DNA of 64,000 nt from Synechococcus sp. ROS8604 (GTDB lineage Bacteria > Cyanobacteriota > Cyanobacteriia > PCC-6307 > Cyanobiaceae), in the NCBI RefSeq assembly GCF_014279655.1, contig NZ_CP047946.1, positions 1,426,001 to 1,490,000 of the forward strand, in the 5' to 3' direction. The number at the start of each line of letters is the position of its first letter. Positions within the stretch are counted from its first letter, which is position 1. This document shows, piece by piece, positions 27,764 to 32,961 of the stretch. Position numbers and translations under genes: made by a program. The notes under the pieces were generated by a model that saw only the letters and a list, made by a program, of their open reading frames with translations, did not search any database and was not told the origin of the DNA.

Positions 27764-29029
27764 TTATCGTTGCCGTGAAGTCACAACAAGACCACCACGA
27801 GGAGTGGGGCTGGGAATTTGTTGCAATGTCAAATCCTGATTCGGTTCAAGTTTTAACTCGATCTTCTTCAACAAACCCACAGCCATCAAGCGAATTTCAA
27901 GATCCGCGAGAGCTTTTCCCAGGCATACCCTTTCCCCACCCCCGAAGGGCATCAAGGTTTGATGGAACGATCGATCCAAATGCCGTTGGGGGCGAAAAGC
28001 AGATAGGTCAGAATCATCGCCAGTTGCGGATGCCGTCAAAACCACTTGAATCACTCGATTGTCCGGAACTTCAATGCCAGCGAGCATGACCGGACCCTTG
28101 GTTCGCCGAAAGAACCCTCCCACCGGAGGGGTTAGGCGCATCACCTCCAATACGGTGGCATCCAGGCGAGGGTAGGAAAGGTCCGCAGGGGCTTCAGAAG
28201 ACGGATGATCCAACTCGGACAACAGCCAGTCGTGCACCGTTGGATTGGTTAACAATGCACGAAAAAGACAACTTAAGGACGATGCCGTTGTTTCATAACC
28301 TGCAAAAAGTAGAAGCAAGAGTTGCTCAGCGAGATCGTCATCGTTGAGTTGAATCCCGGCTTCATCCACCCCACCTCGGATCAGATCTAAGCCCCCTCGC
28401 AACGAGGTGTGATTGACGAGCACCAGTTTCAAGCGTGTAAGCAAGCGTGAGCGTGCCTGCATTGCTTTAGCGAAAGGGGAAGCCGGTATCGAGATCGAGA
28501 TCGAAAACAAAGCCTTCGTCCAAATCTCGAAATCAGCAAATAATTCGTCTTTGTCTTGATTATCGAGACCCAAGACAACGTTTGCGATCACGCTGAAAGC
28601 AAAGCGCCGCATCCGCGGGGCGAGTGGTAGAGCAGATTGGCTGTCCAGCAATTCTGCAACGAGTTCCTGTACGAGAGCTTCAATCTCTGGTGCATAGCGC
28701 CGGAGCGCTGCACTAGAAAACAATTGACCAACCACGCGCCGACGAGCCTTGTGCCCAGCACCATTGCGATTGGCCAAGGAGCGGCTGCCCAGCAACAAAC
28801 GAACACTTTTAGGCCACCACCCCTCAAGACAATCTCCTTGTGCCAACAAGTCAGCGATGGCCTCATCCCCTTGGATGAACACAATGCGCTGACCGAGAAG
28901 AGACGTCTCGAAGAGATCACCATGGGTCTCAAAGCGACGTTGAGCAAAACAGGGATCACGGAAAAATGCCAGTGCCTCTAAAACTCCGGTTACAGCCCCG
29001 GTGTTCGGCAGTTGTGCTTGCGAAATCAA
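27764..29029 (-). CDS. Cytochrome P450
   Basis: Soluble-looking P450 of 421 residues. The I-helix LLFAGYETTAS has the oxygen-activating AGxETT, the K-helix ExxR is VLEVMRLTPPVGG, and the heme loop FGGGERVCLGKALA has the ligand Cys. It belongs to the bacterial CYP120-like kind by length and loop. The gene is divergent from the methyltransferase of the polyketide operon across a 206-bp gap, so the two may share control. It could tailor the polyketide; that is inference. A ferredoxin partner is not seen nearby. Confidence 0.9.
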   Translation of the reverse strand: MISQAQLPNTGAVTGVLEALAFFRDPCFAQRRFETHGDLFETSLLGQRIVFIQGDEAIADLLAQGDCLEGWWPKSVRLLLGSRSLANRNGAGHKARRRVVGQLFSSAALRRYAPEIEALVQELVAELLDSQSALPLAPRMRRFAFSVIANVVLGLDNQDKDELFADFEIWTKALFSISISIPASPFAKAMQARSRLLTRLKLVLVNHTSLRGGLDLIRGGVDEAGIQLNDDDLAEQLLLLLFAGYETTASSLSCLFRALLTNPTVHDWLLSELDHPSSEAPADLSYPRLDATVLEVMRLTPPVGGFFRRTKGPVMLAGIEVPDNRVIQVVLTASATGDDSDLSAFRPQRHLDRSFHQTLMPFGGGERVCLGKALADLEIRLMAVGLLKKIELKLEPNQDLTLQQIPSPTPRGGLVVTSRQR

Positions 29030-29235: not shown

Positions 29236-29955
29236 ATGATCTGGGGTGCTGCGCTCAACAACCGCGATCGTCAACCGGAAGTGATGGATCAACCTGGCCT
29301 TGACCCAGGGGAGCATGCAAAAGCATTGATGGGCTTGCGGCGAATTAATACGATCAGTCGCTGTTCCGCCGGTTTGTTTCGCCCCATTGAGGCCCTTGCA
29401 AAGACTCGGCTGACACAGCCACTTCGCGTTCTTGAACTTGCCTGTGGGGGGGGTGATACCGCCATCGACCTCGCGCTGATGGCCAAGCAAAAGGGGTTGG
29501 CACTGGATCTTCATGCCTGTGATCTCAACCCTGAAGCTGTTGAAATTGCTCGGATCAATGCAAGGACACGAAAAGCAGCGCTCACGGTTTTTACTGCTGA
29601 TGCCTTGTCAAAACCAACAGACCAAAGCAGCTTTGATGTGGTGTATTGCACGCTGTTTGCACATCACTTAGATGAGCTTGATGTGGTCCTTCTATTAGAG
29701 GGGATGGCGCTGCGATCACGACAACTCGTCCTGGTGGATGACCTCATTCGTAGTCGGCTTGGTTTTGGATTGGCCTGGATTGGCACCAGGCTTTTAAGTC
29801 GCTCCTGGGTGGTTCATACCGATGGCCCTCTGTCTGTACGCGGCGCCCTAAAACCCGATGAAATGATGGCCATCGCGAAGCGGGCAGGTCTTGAGAACGC
29901 GCAGATCAAACGCTCGTGGCCGGAGCGTTACCTCTTGAGCTGGGAACGAGATTGA
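29236..29955 (+). CDS. SAM-dependent methyltransferase of the type III PKS operon
   Basis: Class I methyltransferase of 239 residues. SAM motif I is VLELACGGGDTAIDLAL near residue 66, the acidic loop is LHACDLNPEAVEIA, and motif post I and II follow with FDVVYCTLFAHHL. The N-terminus (MDQPGLDPGEHAKALMGLRR) is the conserved helix seen in methyltransferases encoded beside bacterial type III polyketide synthases. The next gene begins 1 bp after its stop. It should methylate an oxygen or carbon of the phenolic or pyrone product. Confidence 0.85.
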   Translation: MIWGAALNNRDRQPEVMDQPGLDPGEHAKALMGLRRINTISRCSAGLFRPIEALAKTRLTQPLRVLELACGGGDTAIDLALMAKQKGLALDLHACDLNPEAVEIARINARTRKAALTVFTADALSKPTDQSSFDVVYCTLFAHHLDELDVVLLLEGMALRSRQLVLVDDLIRSRLGFGLAWIGTRLLSRSWVVHTDGPLSVRGALKPDEMMAIAKRAGLENAQIKRSWPERYLLSWERD

Positions 29956-29956
29956 G

Positions 29957-31117
29957 ATGCAAACACTGTGGGATGTTGTGATCATTGGTGGTGGGCCTGC
30001 TGGAGGTCTGGCTGCTTTGGATTGTGCACAACGAGGGTTGCGCGTGTTGCTCGTTGAACAACGCGCGTTCCCGCGTTGGAAAGTTTGTGGATGCTGTTTC
30101 AACAATCAGGCTCAAGCCATTTTGAGTTCGCGAGGTCAAAACAACTTGATTGTGGATTGTGGCGGGCAAGCACTGCAAAGCTTGAGACTTGGACTGCGTG
30201 GACGTGAAACATCATTGGCTCTACCAGATGGCTTTGCGCTTTCGCGGGAACGATTCGATCAAGCCCTCATCGATGCAGCCATGAGCGCTGGAGCATCAGC
30301 ACGCTTCGAGATGACAGCCCAAGTTGAGTCAGCAAGCCCTGGGTACAGGAGCGTGCGCCTAAAAAACCATCACAGTGGAACGAGCCGTTCTGTCAAAGCA
30401 CGGGTTGTGCTTGTGGCCGCTGGCCTGTCCCAGCGTTGCCTTCCCAAAAACGAAGCAGGACAAAGCAGGATTCGCAAGCAATCAAGACATGGTGCCGGCT
30501 GCGTCGTTGATGATGAAACCTCTCACTACCCCGCGGGAGCCATTCATATGGCGATTGGTGACCAGGGCTATGTGGGCTTAGTGCGCCGGGAAGATGGATT
30601 GCTCAATCTTGCAGGAGCCTTTGATCGCCACGTCCTCTCCAAGGGACAAGGAGCCGTTGATGCCGCTCAGAATGTTTTAAAACAGGCGGGATTTCCAGTG
30701 CCGGCGGCCCTGGAACAAGGTCAACGCTGGCAACTCACTCCAGCGCTCAGCCGCAGTTCAGACGAGGTAGCTGGAGAACGTTTTCTTGTGATGGGCGATG
30801 CCGCAGGTTATGTCGAGCCCTTCACCGGTGAAGGGATGGCTTGGGCCTTAACGGCAGGCGCAGCAGCAGTGCCATTCGTTCTGGAAGGACTGGAAGGTTG
30901 GAGCGACGATTTAGAAGCGCGCTGGAAAAAAGCTCTTCAATGGCACATCGGCAGGCGGCAATCGGTCTGCCGAGCCTTATCCACCGTCTTGAAACGCCCC
31001 GCCCTCACAACCGTGTTATTTGAACTGATCAGACGTTGGCCCTCACTGTCTGAACAGATCATCTCCAACCTGAACGAGGTCAAGCTGCCAACGCCTTTAG
31101 GTGAGCCATGCCACTGA
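29957..31117 (+). CDS. FAD-dependent oxidoreductase, geranylgeranyl reductase/UbiH-like
   Basis: Flavoprotein of 386 residues. The N-terminal dinucleotide loop is VVIIGGGPAGGLAAL, and ERFDQALIDAA is the usual second FAD contact. RFLVMGDAAGYVEPFTGEG is the GD motif near residue 280. A cysteine-rich WKVCGCCFNNQ sits where geranylgeranyl-reductase-like members carry a substrate-side loop. Its stop overlaps the polyketide synthase start by 10 bp. A hydroxylation or reduction of the polyketide or a prenyl-like chain is likely. Confidence 0.85.
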   Translation: MQTLWDVVIIGGGPAGGLAALDCAQRGLRVLLVEQRAFPRWKVCGCCFNNQAQAILSSRGQNNLIVDCGGQALQSLRLGLRGRETSLALPDGFALSRERFDQALIDAAMSAGASARFEMTAQVESASPGYRSVRLKNHHSGTSRSVKARVVLVAAGLSQRCLPKNEAGQSRIRKQSRHGAGCVVDDETSHYPAGAIHMAIGDQGYVGLVRREDGLLNLAGAFDRHVLSKGQGAVDAAQNVLKQAGFPVPAALEQGQRWQLTPALSRSSDEVAGERFLVMGDAAGYVEPFTGEGMAWALTAGAAAVPFVLEGLEGWSDDLEARWKKALQWHIGRRQSVCRALSTVLKRPALTTVLFELIRRWPSLSEQIISNLNEVKLPTPLGEPCH

Positions 31118-32202
31118 GTGTTCTCGGGCTCGCGACCGCAGTCCCTACGCAATCCGTCAATCAAACAGAGTCAACAACACTGTCTGAATGGGTCAGCGCA
31201 GATCATCCCGAGCGAGCCTCGCTCGTACGCCGCATTCAAAGGCGATCACAAGTGGAAACCAGGGGAAGTGTTTTATTAACTGGCGATCCACAGCAAACAA
31301 TCCATCAGCGCTTGCCGTTTTATGGGGTTGATAGCCCCAACACGGCCTTACGGATGGAGGCGTTTCGACTGCATGCCTCCTCATTGGCGCTCAAAGCATG
31401 CCAACGGGCACTGGATGAGTCACCAATCTCTGTTCAACAAATCACGCATCTGATCACGATCAGCTGTACGGGATTTCATGCCCCCGGCGTTGATTGTGAT
31501 CTCATTGATCAACTTCAGCTTCCGCCCGATGTCCAACGGACCCATGTGGGGTTCATGGGGTGTCATGCAGCAATCAACGGTTTACGCGTCGCCCACGCCT
31601 TTGTCAAAGCTGATCCCGAAGCGGTGGTTCTGCTTTGCGCCGTGGAATTATGCAGTCTTCATTTGCAATATGGCTGGAATCCTGAACATGTTGTGGCCAA
31701 CACATTATTTGCCGATGGTGCCGCCGCTTTGGTCGCGACGCATGCTGAATCCACCTCACCGGGATCGAGTTCAACAGGACTGTTGCTAGAGGCATCTGGA
31801 TCCACGGTGATTCCGGAAACCCGCGATTTAATGCATTGGCAGATTGGAGATCATGGCTTTTCCATGGGCTTATCCCCAAAAGTACCAAAGGCGATTGCGA
31901 CGACCTTGCAACCATGGCTTAGCCAATGGCTGGAGGCCCGTGGCATCGATCTCAATGCCATTCAACATTGGGCTATTCACCCTGGGGGTCCAAGAATTCT
32001 TCAAGCATGTGCTGAATCATTGACTCTCAGAGAGGATCAACTTGCTCATTCCAAACATATTCTTAGTCGCTATGGAAACATGTCTTCAGCCACTATTTTG
32101 TTTGTGCTTGACCATATGCGTCAAGATGATTGTCATGGACCAGGCGTCGCCCTTGCCTTCGGGCCAGGATTATGTGCTGAAGTCGCCTTGATGACGTTAT
32201 AG
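31108..32202 (+). CDS. Type III polyketide synthase (chalcone/stilbene synthase family)
   Basis: Homodimeric ketosynthase of 364 residues that extends an acyl-CoA with malonyl-CoA units and cyclises the chain. The catalytic triad is intact: Cys152 in VGFMGCHAAING, His291 in HPGGP and Asn324 in YGNMSSAT. The C-terminal ALAFGPGLCAE is the family's GFGPG loop. It forms a tight operon with the methyltransferase and FAD oxidoreductase, an arrangement known for bacterial alkylresorcinol/alkylpyrone type clusters. The starter unit cannot be predicted from sequence alone; an acyl/aryl-CoA ligase at 38592 could supply it. Confidence 0.92.
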   Translation: MPLSVLGLATAVPTQSVNQTESTTLSEWVSADHPERASLVRRIQRRSQVETRGSVLLTGDPQQTIHQRLPFYGVDSPNTALRMEAFRLHASSLALKACQRALDESPISVQQITHLITISCTGFHAPGVDCDLIDQLQLPPDVQRTHVGFMGCHAAINGLRVAHAFVKADPEAVVLLCAVELCSLHLQYGWNPEHVVANTLFADGAAALVATHAESTSPGSSSTGLLLEASGSTVIPETRDLMHWQIGDHGFSMGLSPKVPKAIATTLQPWLSQWLEARGIDLNAIQHWAIHPGGPRILQACAESLTLREDQLAHSKHILSRYGNMSSATILFVLDHMRQDDCHGPGVALAFGPGLCAEVALMTL

Positions 32203-32276: not shown

Positions 32277-32344
32277 TTGGTGTTCAAACCACATTGACAT
32301 TCAAAATATATTGATGTTCAAAATAAATTGATGTTCCATTTCGA
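32277..32344. repeat. Four 17-bp tandem repeats before the DUF411 gene
   Basis: Four consecutive 17-bp units start at 32277, 32294, 32311 and 32328. Each opens with TTGRYRTTC (TTGGTGTTC, TTGACATTC, TTGATGTTC, TTGATGTTC); the middle two continue AAAATA and the outer two differ. They lie 75 bp after the polyketide synthase stop and end about 120 bp before the DUF411 start. An operator array or iteron-like element is possible. Confidence 0.65.
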
Positions 32345-32466
32345 TGGACGTTCTGTTTATTCGGATATTAAGGATTAAGGACTGTAAAATAGCCTTCAAA
32401 ACAACGAGCGAGGATCATAGAAGAGCCTTCACTTATTATCATTGGAACGTTGCTGAGCAGATAGAG

Positions 32467-32961
32467 ATGGAACGGATTTGTTTAGGGTTTTTGATGGCTC
32501 TATTTTTCACCATCCTGCCAGTTCCTGCTGATGCTCAGCTGAGGGATGGCCTAGCAACACCATTGGCTGCGACGCCCCTCCCCGAGATCGCCATTTATCG
32601 ATCTGAGAGCTGTGGTTGCTGCACAAAGTGGGCTGAACACGTTGAAGCAGCAGGCTTCCCAATCCAAGACAAGGTGATCAATGCGATGGACGCCTTCAAA
32701 CAAGCCAATGGCATCACCGAGGAGCTGGCGTCTTGCCACACGGCCATCGTGGATGGCTATGTGGTGGAAGGGCATGTTCCCGCAGCATCCATCAAAAAAA
32801 TGTTGCACGAACGACCTGACATCAGAGGACTCGCAGCTCCTGGAATGCCCATGGGATCTCCTGGCATGGAAACAGCCGGCGTATCACCAGAAGCCTTTGA
32901 TGTTCTTGCGATTGCCCAAGACGGCACGACTACTGTTTTTGATCCAATCAGACCTCAGTGA
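32467..32961 (+). CDS. Exported DUF411 metal-binding protein
   Basis: Protein of about 164 residues. The frame runs upstream to 32344, but ATG 32467 gives a clean signal peptide (FLMALFFTILPVPADAQ), so it is preferred. The mature part is the DUF411 domain: IYRSESCGCCTKWAEHV with a CxCC metal-binding motif, a second cysteine in ELASCHTAIVDGY, and EGHVPAASIKKML plus a Met/Gly/Pro-rich PGMPMGSPGME. DUF411 proteins are periplasmic and linked to copper handling. The four tandem repeats upstream may control it. Confidence 0.85.
   Translation: MERICLGFLMALFFTILPVPADAQLRDGLATPLAATPLPEIAIYRSESCGCCTKWAEHVEAAGFPIQDKVINAMDAFKQANGITEELASCHTAIVDGYVVEGHVPAASIKKMLHERPDIRGLAAPGMPMGSPGMETAGVSPEAFDVLAIAQDGTTTVFDPIRPQ

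Follow-up and report, generated by a model that had tools for sequence, protein, structure and literature searches.

The operon at positions 29236-32202 of the analysed stretch of DNA (64,000 nucleotides of Synechococcus sp. ROS8604, here called the window) is very probably the hierridin operon hidABC, with a hierridin B-like methylated 5-alkylresorcinol as its predicted product. We draw this conclusion because the gene order, the protein families and the diagnostic active-site residue match those of hidA-hidB-hidC. Hierridin B is the product of hidABC in Cyanobium sp. LEGE 06113, as stated in PMC10896814, and the link to the HidC of that strain was made through published descriptions. The two operons are alike in their three genes, in the families, order and strand of these, in the picocyanobacterial host, and in the Met in the gatekeeper column of the polyketide synthase; they differ in that the window operon comes from another strain and its product is predicted. 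According to PMC8086630 and PMC10896814, hid genes are widespread across Synechococcus and Prochlorococcus. The former describes 47 hierridin-like clusters in cyanobacteria, Prochlorococcus and Synechococcus especially, with hidA>hidB>hidC as the more conserved gene order. The latter cites Costa et al. 2019, whose title names prevalent alkylresorcinol biosynthesis in picocyanobacteria, and a genome note on Synechococcus sp. LA31 also lists a hierridin B region (PMC8928756). The preliminary description of this DNA took the product to be unpredictable from sequence, with a new phenolic or pyrone lipid as a possibility. Neither statement can be upheld, the operon matching hidABC with its known products (hierridins, alkylresorcinols), and the frequency of this operon in picocyanobacteria being already published (PMC8086630, PMC10896814).

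The three genes are intact open reading frames on the plus strand and are tightly packed (Table 1). A single base (29956) separates the stop codon of hidA from the ATG of hidB, and hidB and hidC overlap by 10 bases (31108-31117), precisely the 1-bp spacing and 10-bp overlap that had been reported in the preliminary description. The open reading frames and the family profiles also confirm its account of a methyltransferase, an FAD oxidoreductase and a type III polyketide synthase (PKS) with an intact Cys-His-Asn triad (see below), and the picocyanobacterial host agrees with the nearest named loci, which, among the matches listed, are those of Synechococcus sp. SP2 (83%), sp. 8F6 (64%) and sp. 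AG-673-F03 (57%). The host genome is a single contig of 2,876,904 bases, in which the C-terminal domain of type III PKSs is matched once. A scan for promoters and terminators found none above chance (3 against 2.8 expected, and 1 against 3.9). It was also possible to spot by eye imperfect short direct repeats, TTGATGTTCAAAATA-like, in the gap after hidC, at about 32280-32337.

Table 1. Genes of the hid operon and of its surroundings, in positions of the window.
Feature	Position	Strand	Description
hidA	29236..29955	+	239 aa, ATG; SAM-dependent methyltransferase; PF13649, NF004851; predicted alkylresorcinol O-methyltransferase
hidB	29957..31117	+	386 aa, ATG; FAD-dependent oxidoreductase; PF01494/PF01266; predicted ring hydroxylase
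hidC	31108..32202	+	364 aa, ATG; type III polyketide synthase; PF00195, PF02797; Cys152-His291-Asn324; gatekeeper-column Met253
cytochrome P450 (neighbouring gene)	27764..29029	-	divergent from hidA; PF00067
DUF411 protein (neighbouring gene)	32344..32961	+	downstream of hidC; PF04214
second P450	35704-37080	-	about 3.5 kb downstream of hidC

In the family profile search HidC matched PF00195 with 76 bits and PF02797 with 95.4 bits, against cut-offs of 27. Cys152, His291 and Asn324 did not vary among the 15 HidC sequences that were aligned, out of 20 in the genus. The solved structure nearest to HidC by sequence is PKS18 of Mycobacterium tuberculosis (1ted, E 1.1e-51). Structurally, HidC (model pLDDT 79.6) most resembles the type III PKSs of mycobacteria and plants, with PKS18 among the nearest by fold. 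HidC has the same fold and the same Cys-His-Asn triad as PKS18 and the plant chalcone synthases (CHS), but the latter mostly yield flavonoid precursors and PKS18 makes pyrones (PMC8086630). The gatekeeper column, that of CHS Phe265, was located through the alignment with PKS18 together with PMC8086630. In this column a Cys of PKS18 stands opposite Met253 of HidC, and all 15 aligned rows have this Met. As described in PMC8086630, Met is typical of the HidC clade (3.2222) and Cys of clade 3.1, which includes PKS18.

The closeness to PKS18, both by sequence and by fold, could be taken to mean that the operon, like PKS18, closes the ring by lactonisation to give an alkylpyrone, on which the other two enzymes act. 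PMC8086630 does not exclude cyanobacterial pyrones, and models a pyrone-sized pocket for a Prochlorococcus enzyme; it also states that no cyanobacterial pyrone had been isolated so far. HidC has the gatekeeper Met and not the Cys of PKS18, and the genes next to hidC agree with hidABC in kind and order. Furthermore, resorcinols came from all four productive planctomycete synthases of such operons or their variants (PMC10896814). We therefore rejected the reading of HidC as a pyrone synthase, on account of the misfit of both the gatekeeper residue and the operon context, and consider an alkylpyrone product highly unlikely. The predicted product class is a hierridin-type 5-alkylresorcinol, a phenolic lipid and not a pyrone, with chain length, cyclisation and class all taken from relatives.

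The planctomycete work shows the same gene order, methyltransferase-oxidoreductase-type III PKS, in Planctomycetota (PMC10896814). The operons of Gimesia maris and Rhodopirellula baltica match that of the window in order and families, and their synthases were shown to be alkylresorcinol synthases by heterologous expression. Of the six planctomycete synthases that the same paper reports as expressed in C. glutamicum, the four that belong to this operon or to one of its variants yielded alkylresorcinols, and no product was obtained with the two that lack it. The PKS of the window is 38-49% identical to the planctomycete loci. Co-expression of the G. maris methyltransferase and FAD enzyme probably added a C-methyl group, and PMC10896814 leaves the role of the FAD enzyme open. 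The methyltransferase of G. maris is probably a C-methyltransferase, in contrast to HidA, which the same source reports to O-methylate phenolic hydroxyls, both of them. The window HidA is above the cut-off of PF13649 and reaches 289.2 bits with NF004851, whose cut-off is 243.

HidB is above the cut-offs of PF01266 and PF01494, and below that of its best sequence family, the geranylgeranyl-reductase superfamily TIGR02032 (122.1 versus 158.8 bits). Its AlphaFold model (pLDDT 90.3) has a fold common to flavin aromatic hydroxylases, flavin halogenases and geranylgeranyl reductases, and the best 50 structural matches have Z scores of 33 to 38, the halogenases slightly above the hydroxylases. PltA, Bmp2, ChlB4, Mpy16, CndH and RadH are among the closest structures, and Bmp2 ranks second among the profile matches. 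It is conceivable from this that HidB is a flavin-dependent halogenase and that the operon yields a chlorinated hierridin; no source is known for the chlorine atom in hierridin C. However, aromatic hydroxylases, for instance PnpA (Z 34.6) and 3-hydroxybenzoate 6-hydroxylase (Z 34.4), and a geranylgeranyl reductase-like protein lie within about 3 Z units of the halogenases. Leu73 of HidB faces the Lys of the FPDK stretch of Bmp2, which we take to be the halogenase lysine. The column of Leu73 holds Leu in 32, Thr in one and Val in one of 34 rows and never Lys, which speaks against halogenation. WxWxIP and FxPxSxG, the motifs of flavin-dependent halogenases, are found in none of the 34 rows. With both the active-site lysine and the motifs absent, a halogenase role was rejected and is in our judgement extremely improbable. 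The structural comparison is consistent with a hydroxylase, and HidB is predicted to hydroxylate the ring, most likely at C-4. A 4-hydroxylated product is described in PMC10896814, unlike the account in PMC8086630, where hid tailoring is given as reduction and methylation.

In an alignment of HidB the blocks PR-KVCG-C and GD-Y-EPFTGEG are invariant or nearly so, from cyanobacteria to loci of Planctomycetota, Vreelandella and Elusimicrobia; these non-cyanobacterial loci carry the same three-gene operon.

From the gene order, families, active-site residues, co-occurrence and purifying selection seen in the window and in the genus, together with published work on relatives, the following pathway can be proposed. 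HidC would condense a long fatty acyl starter, borne by ACP or CoA, with three malonyl-CoA, and close the ring by a C2-C7 aldol reaction to give a 5-alkylresorcinol. The starter would be C16 for a pentadecyl chain; 5-pentadecylresorcinol is assigned a C16 starter for the planctomycete synthases in PMC10896814, a C14 starter is given in PMC8086630, and the latter proposes acyl-ACP, not acyl-CoA, as the donor for HidC. The flavoprotein HidB would then hydroxylate the ring, most likely at C-4, and HidA would O-methylate the phenolic hydroxyls, which would lead to a hierridin B-like compound.

The co-occurrence of the three genes within the genus is near all-or-none. Among 31 genomes, full-length HidC matches and hidB were found in the same 20 and hidA in 19 of them, and at the twentieth locus the contig starts 68 bases before hidB. 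The 11 hid-negative genomes gave just weak matches to other proteins (E 3.5e-8 or worse); with HidC, ten of them gave weak matches (E 6e-5 or worse), which are probably FabH-like proteins, and one gave none. A tblastn search at E 1e-3 of eight regions, picked around epimerase, DUF411 or P450 genes in eight of these 11 genomes, gave no match to hidA, hidB or hidC. The order A>B>C on one strand was observed at 19 of the 20 genus loci and at 72 of 90 further loci, which contain some repeats, of genus genomes (L022, L024) and of each other (L026, L140). Hence 18 of the 90 are without a detectable hidA and/or hidB, 12 of them despite at least 2.5 kb upstream of hidC. These 12 are all non-cyanobacterial (L044, L045, L047, L055, L057, L059, L060, L063, L079, L084, L090, L100), and therefore, beyond the cyanobacteria, the presence of a HidC-like PKS is not in itself a sign of the operon. 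In the family, a HidC match at E <= 1e-60 was obtained in 119 of 400 genomes, which represent 17 of 59 genera; for seven of these matches E is above 1e-100, and they may come from other type III PKSs.

The hid genes are under purifying selection and are not chance open reading frames. Compared with five relatives, dN/dS for hidABC was 0.08-0.25 (15 comparisons), with dS near saturation for the most distant relative, and that of the neighbouring alcohol dehydrogenase gene was 0.03-0.10 (3 comparisons). The trees of HidC and HidB divide the 20 sequences of the genus identically, into three groups of 8, 6 and 6, and from this it follows that the two proteins share one history. The group of the window is sister to genus g30, with support of 98/95 for HidC and 100/99 for HidB, and another group joins genus g5 (100/100 and 100/99). 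As judged from these trees, the operon lineages do not follow the genus, and two of the three group with the operons of other genera. Two explanations would fit this pattern, transfer among picocyanobacteria and the sorting of ancient variants. We claim no direction of transfer between phyla because the deep parts of both trees are unsure from long branches.

The P450 gene that is divergent from hidA raises the question of whether the hid pathway is larger in this Synechococcus genus and in some relatives, with the P450 as a fourth enzyme and a further oxidised, undescribed hierridin as the product. We consider this unlikely, and the evidence points in two directions. In the 400 genomes the P450 is present in 87 of 119 with hid and in 95 of 281 without, an odds ratio of 5.3, but the test is inflated by shared ancestry, the 119 include the seven weak matches mentioned above that may belong to other type III PKSs, and the 95 genomes show that the P450 occurs without hid. 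The genus itself shows a weak association (18 of 20 versus 7 of 11, p 0.15). Distances were obtained, among the matches listed, for 64 of the 87 genomes with both genes, and 29 of these were testable, with both genes on one contig. A distance of at most 7 kb between the P450 and hidC was seen in 14 genomes, with several orientations: six belong to lineage A, which is the lineage of the window, five to lineage B1, and genera g10, g37 and g47 contribute one apiece. At locus L031, too, it is divergent from hidA. The neighbour AdhC, taken as a control, comes within 7 kb in 5 of the 31 genomes that have the pair on one contig, and these five belong to lineage A. Counting on one contig, however, favours near pairs in fragmented assemblies, and the P450 is 115 and 154 kb away in the two testable genomes of lineage B2 and more than 350 kb away in six g5 genomes. 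It also stands outside the operon, and its nearest solved relative, P450 120 (CYP120A1, 2ve3), hydroxylates retinoids (PMC7014017). Table 3 of that paper places CYP213A6 and CYP213A8 in type III PKS clusters, and the P450 passage of PMC8086630 deals with mycobacteria. In the parts of the literature on hierridin and P450, and on Synechococcus CYP120, that were available to us, we found no P450 assigned to hierridin.

Two further observations on these genes can be mentioned. In one genome (G007) a 37-residue P450 fragment with a stop is situated just upstream of hidA, and a full copy is found 38 kb away. The second P450 lies in the fetched stretch of four of the eight lineage-A loci, that of the window included.

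The DUF411 gene directly follows hidC at all eight loci of lineage A. Among the remaining 12 hid loci of the genus, which include some short ones, it was not seen. DUF411 genes occur also in genomes without hid. As a general fourth hid gene it was rejected, being confined to lineage A (8 of 20 genus loci) and present where hid is not. Translation of the DUF411 gene of the window probably begins further downstream than the listed ATG, ahead of a stretch that resembles a signal peptide.

The finding is an ordinary one, because the hierridin operon has already been described as common in picocyanobacteria; the pathway is known, the host belongs to a known group and the product is predictable. What remains of interest is what HidB catalyses, where hierridin C gets its chlorine, whether the P450 is involved and what role hierridin-type lipids play in picocyanobacteria. 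For this Synechococcus, what from the raw sequence was called an unknown polyketide becomes a described pathway with a predictable product.
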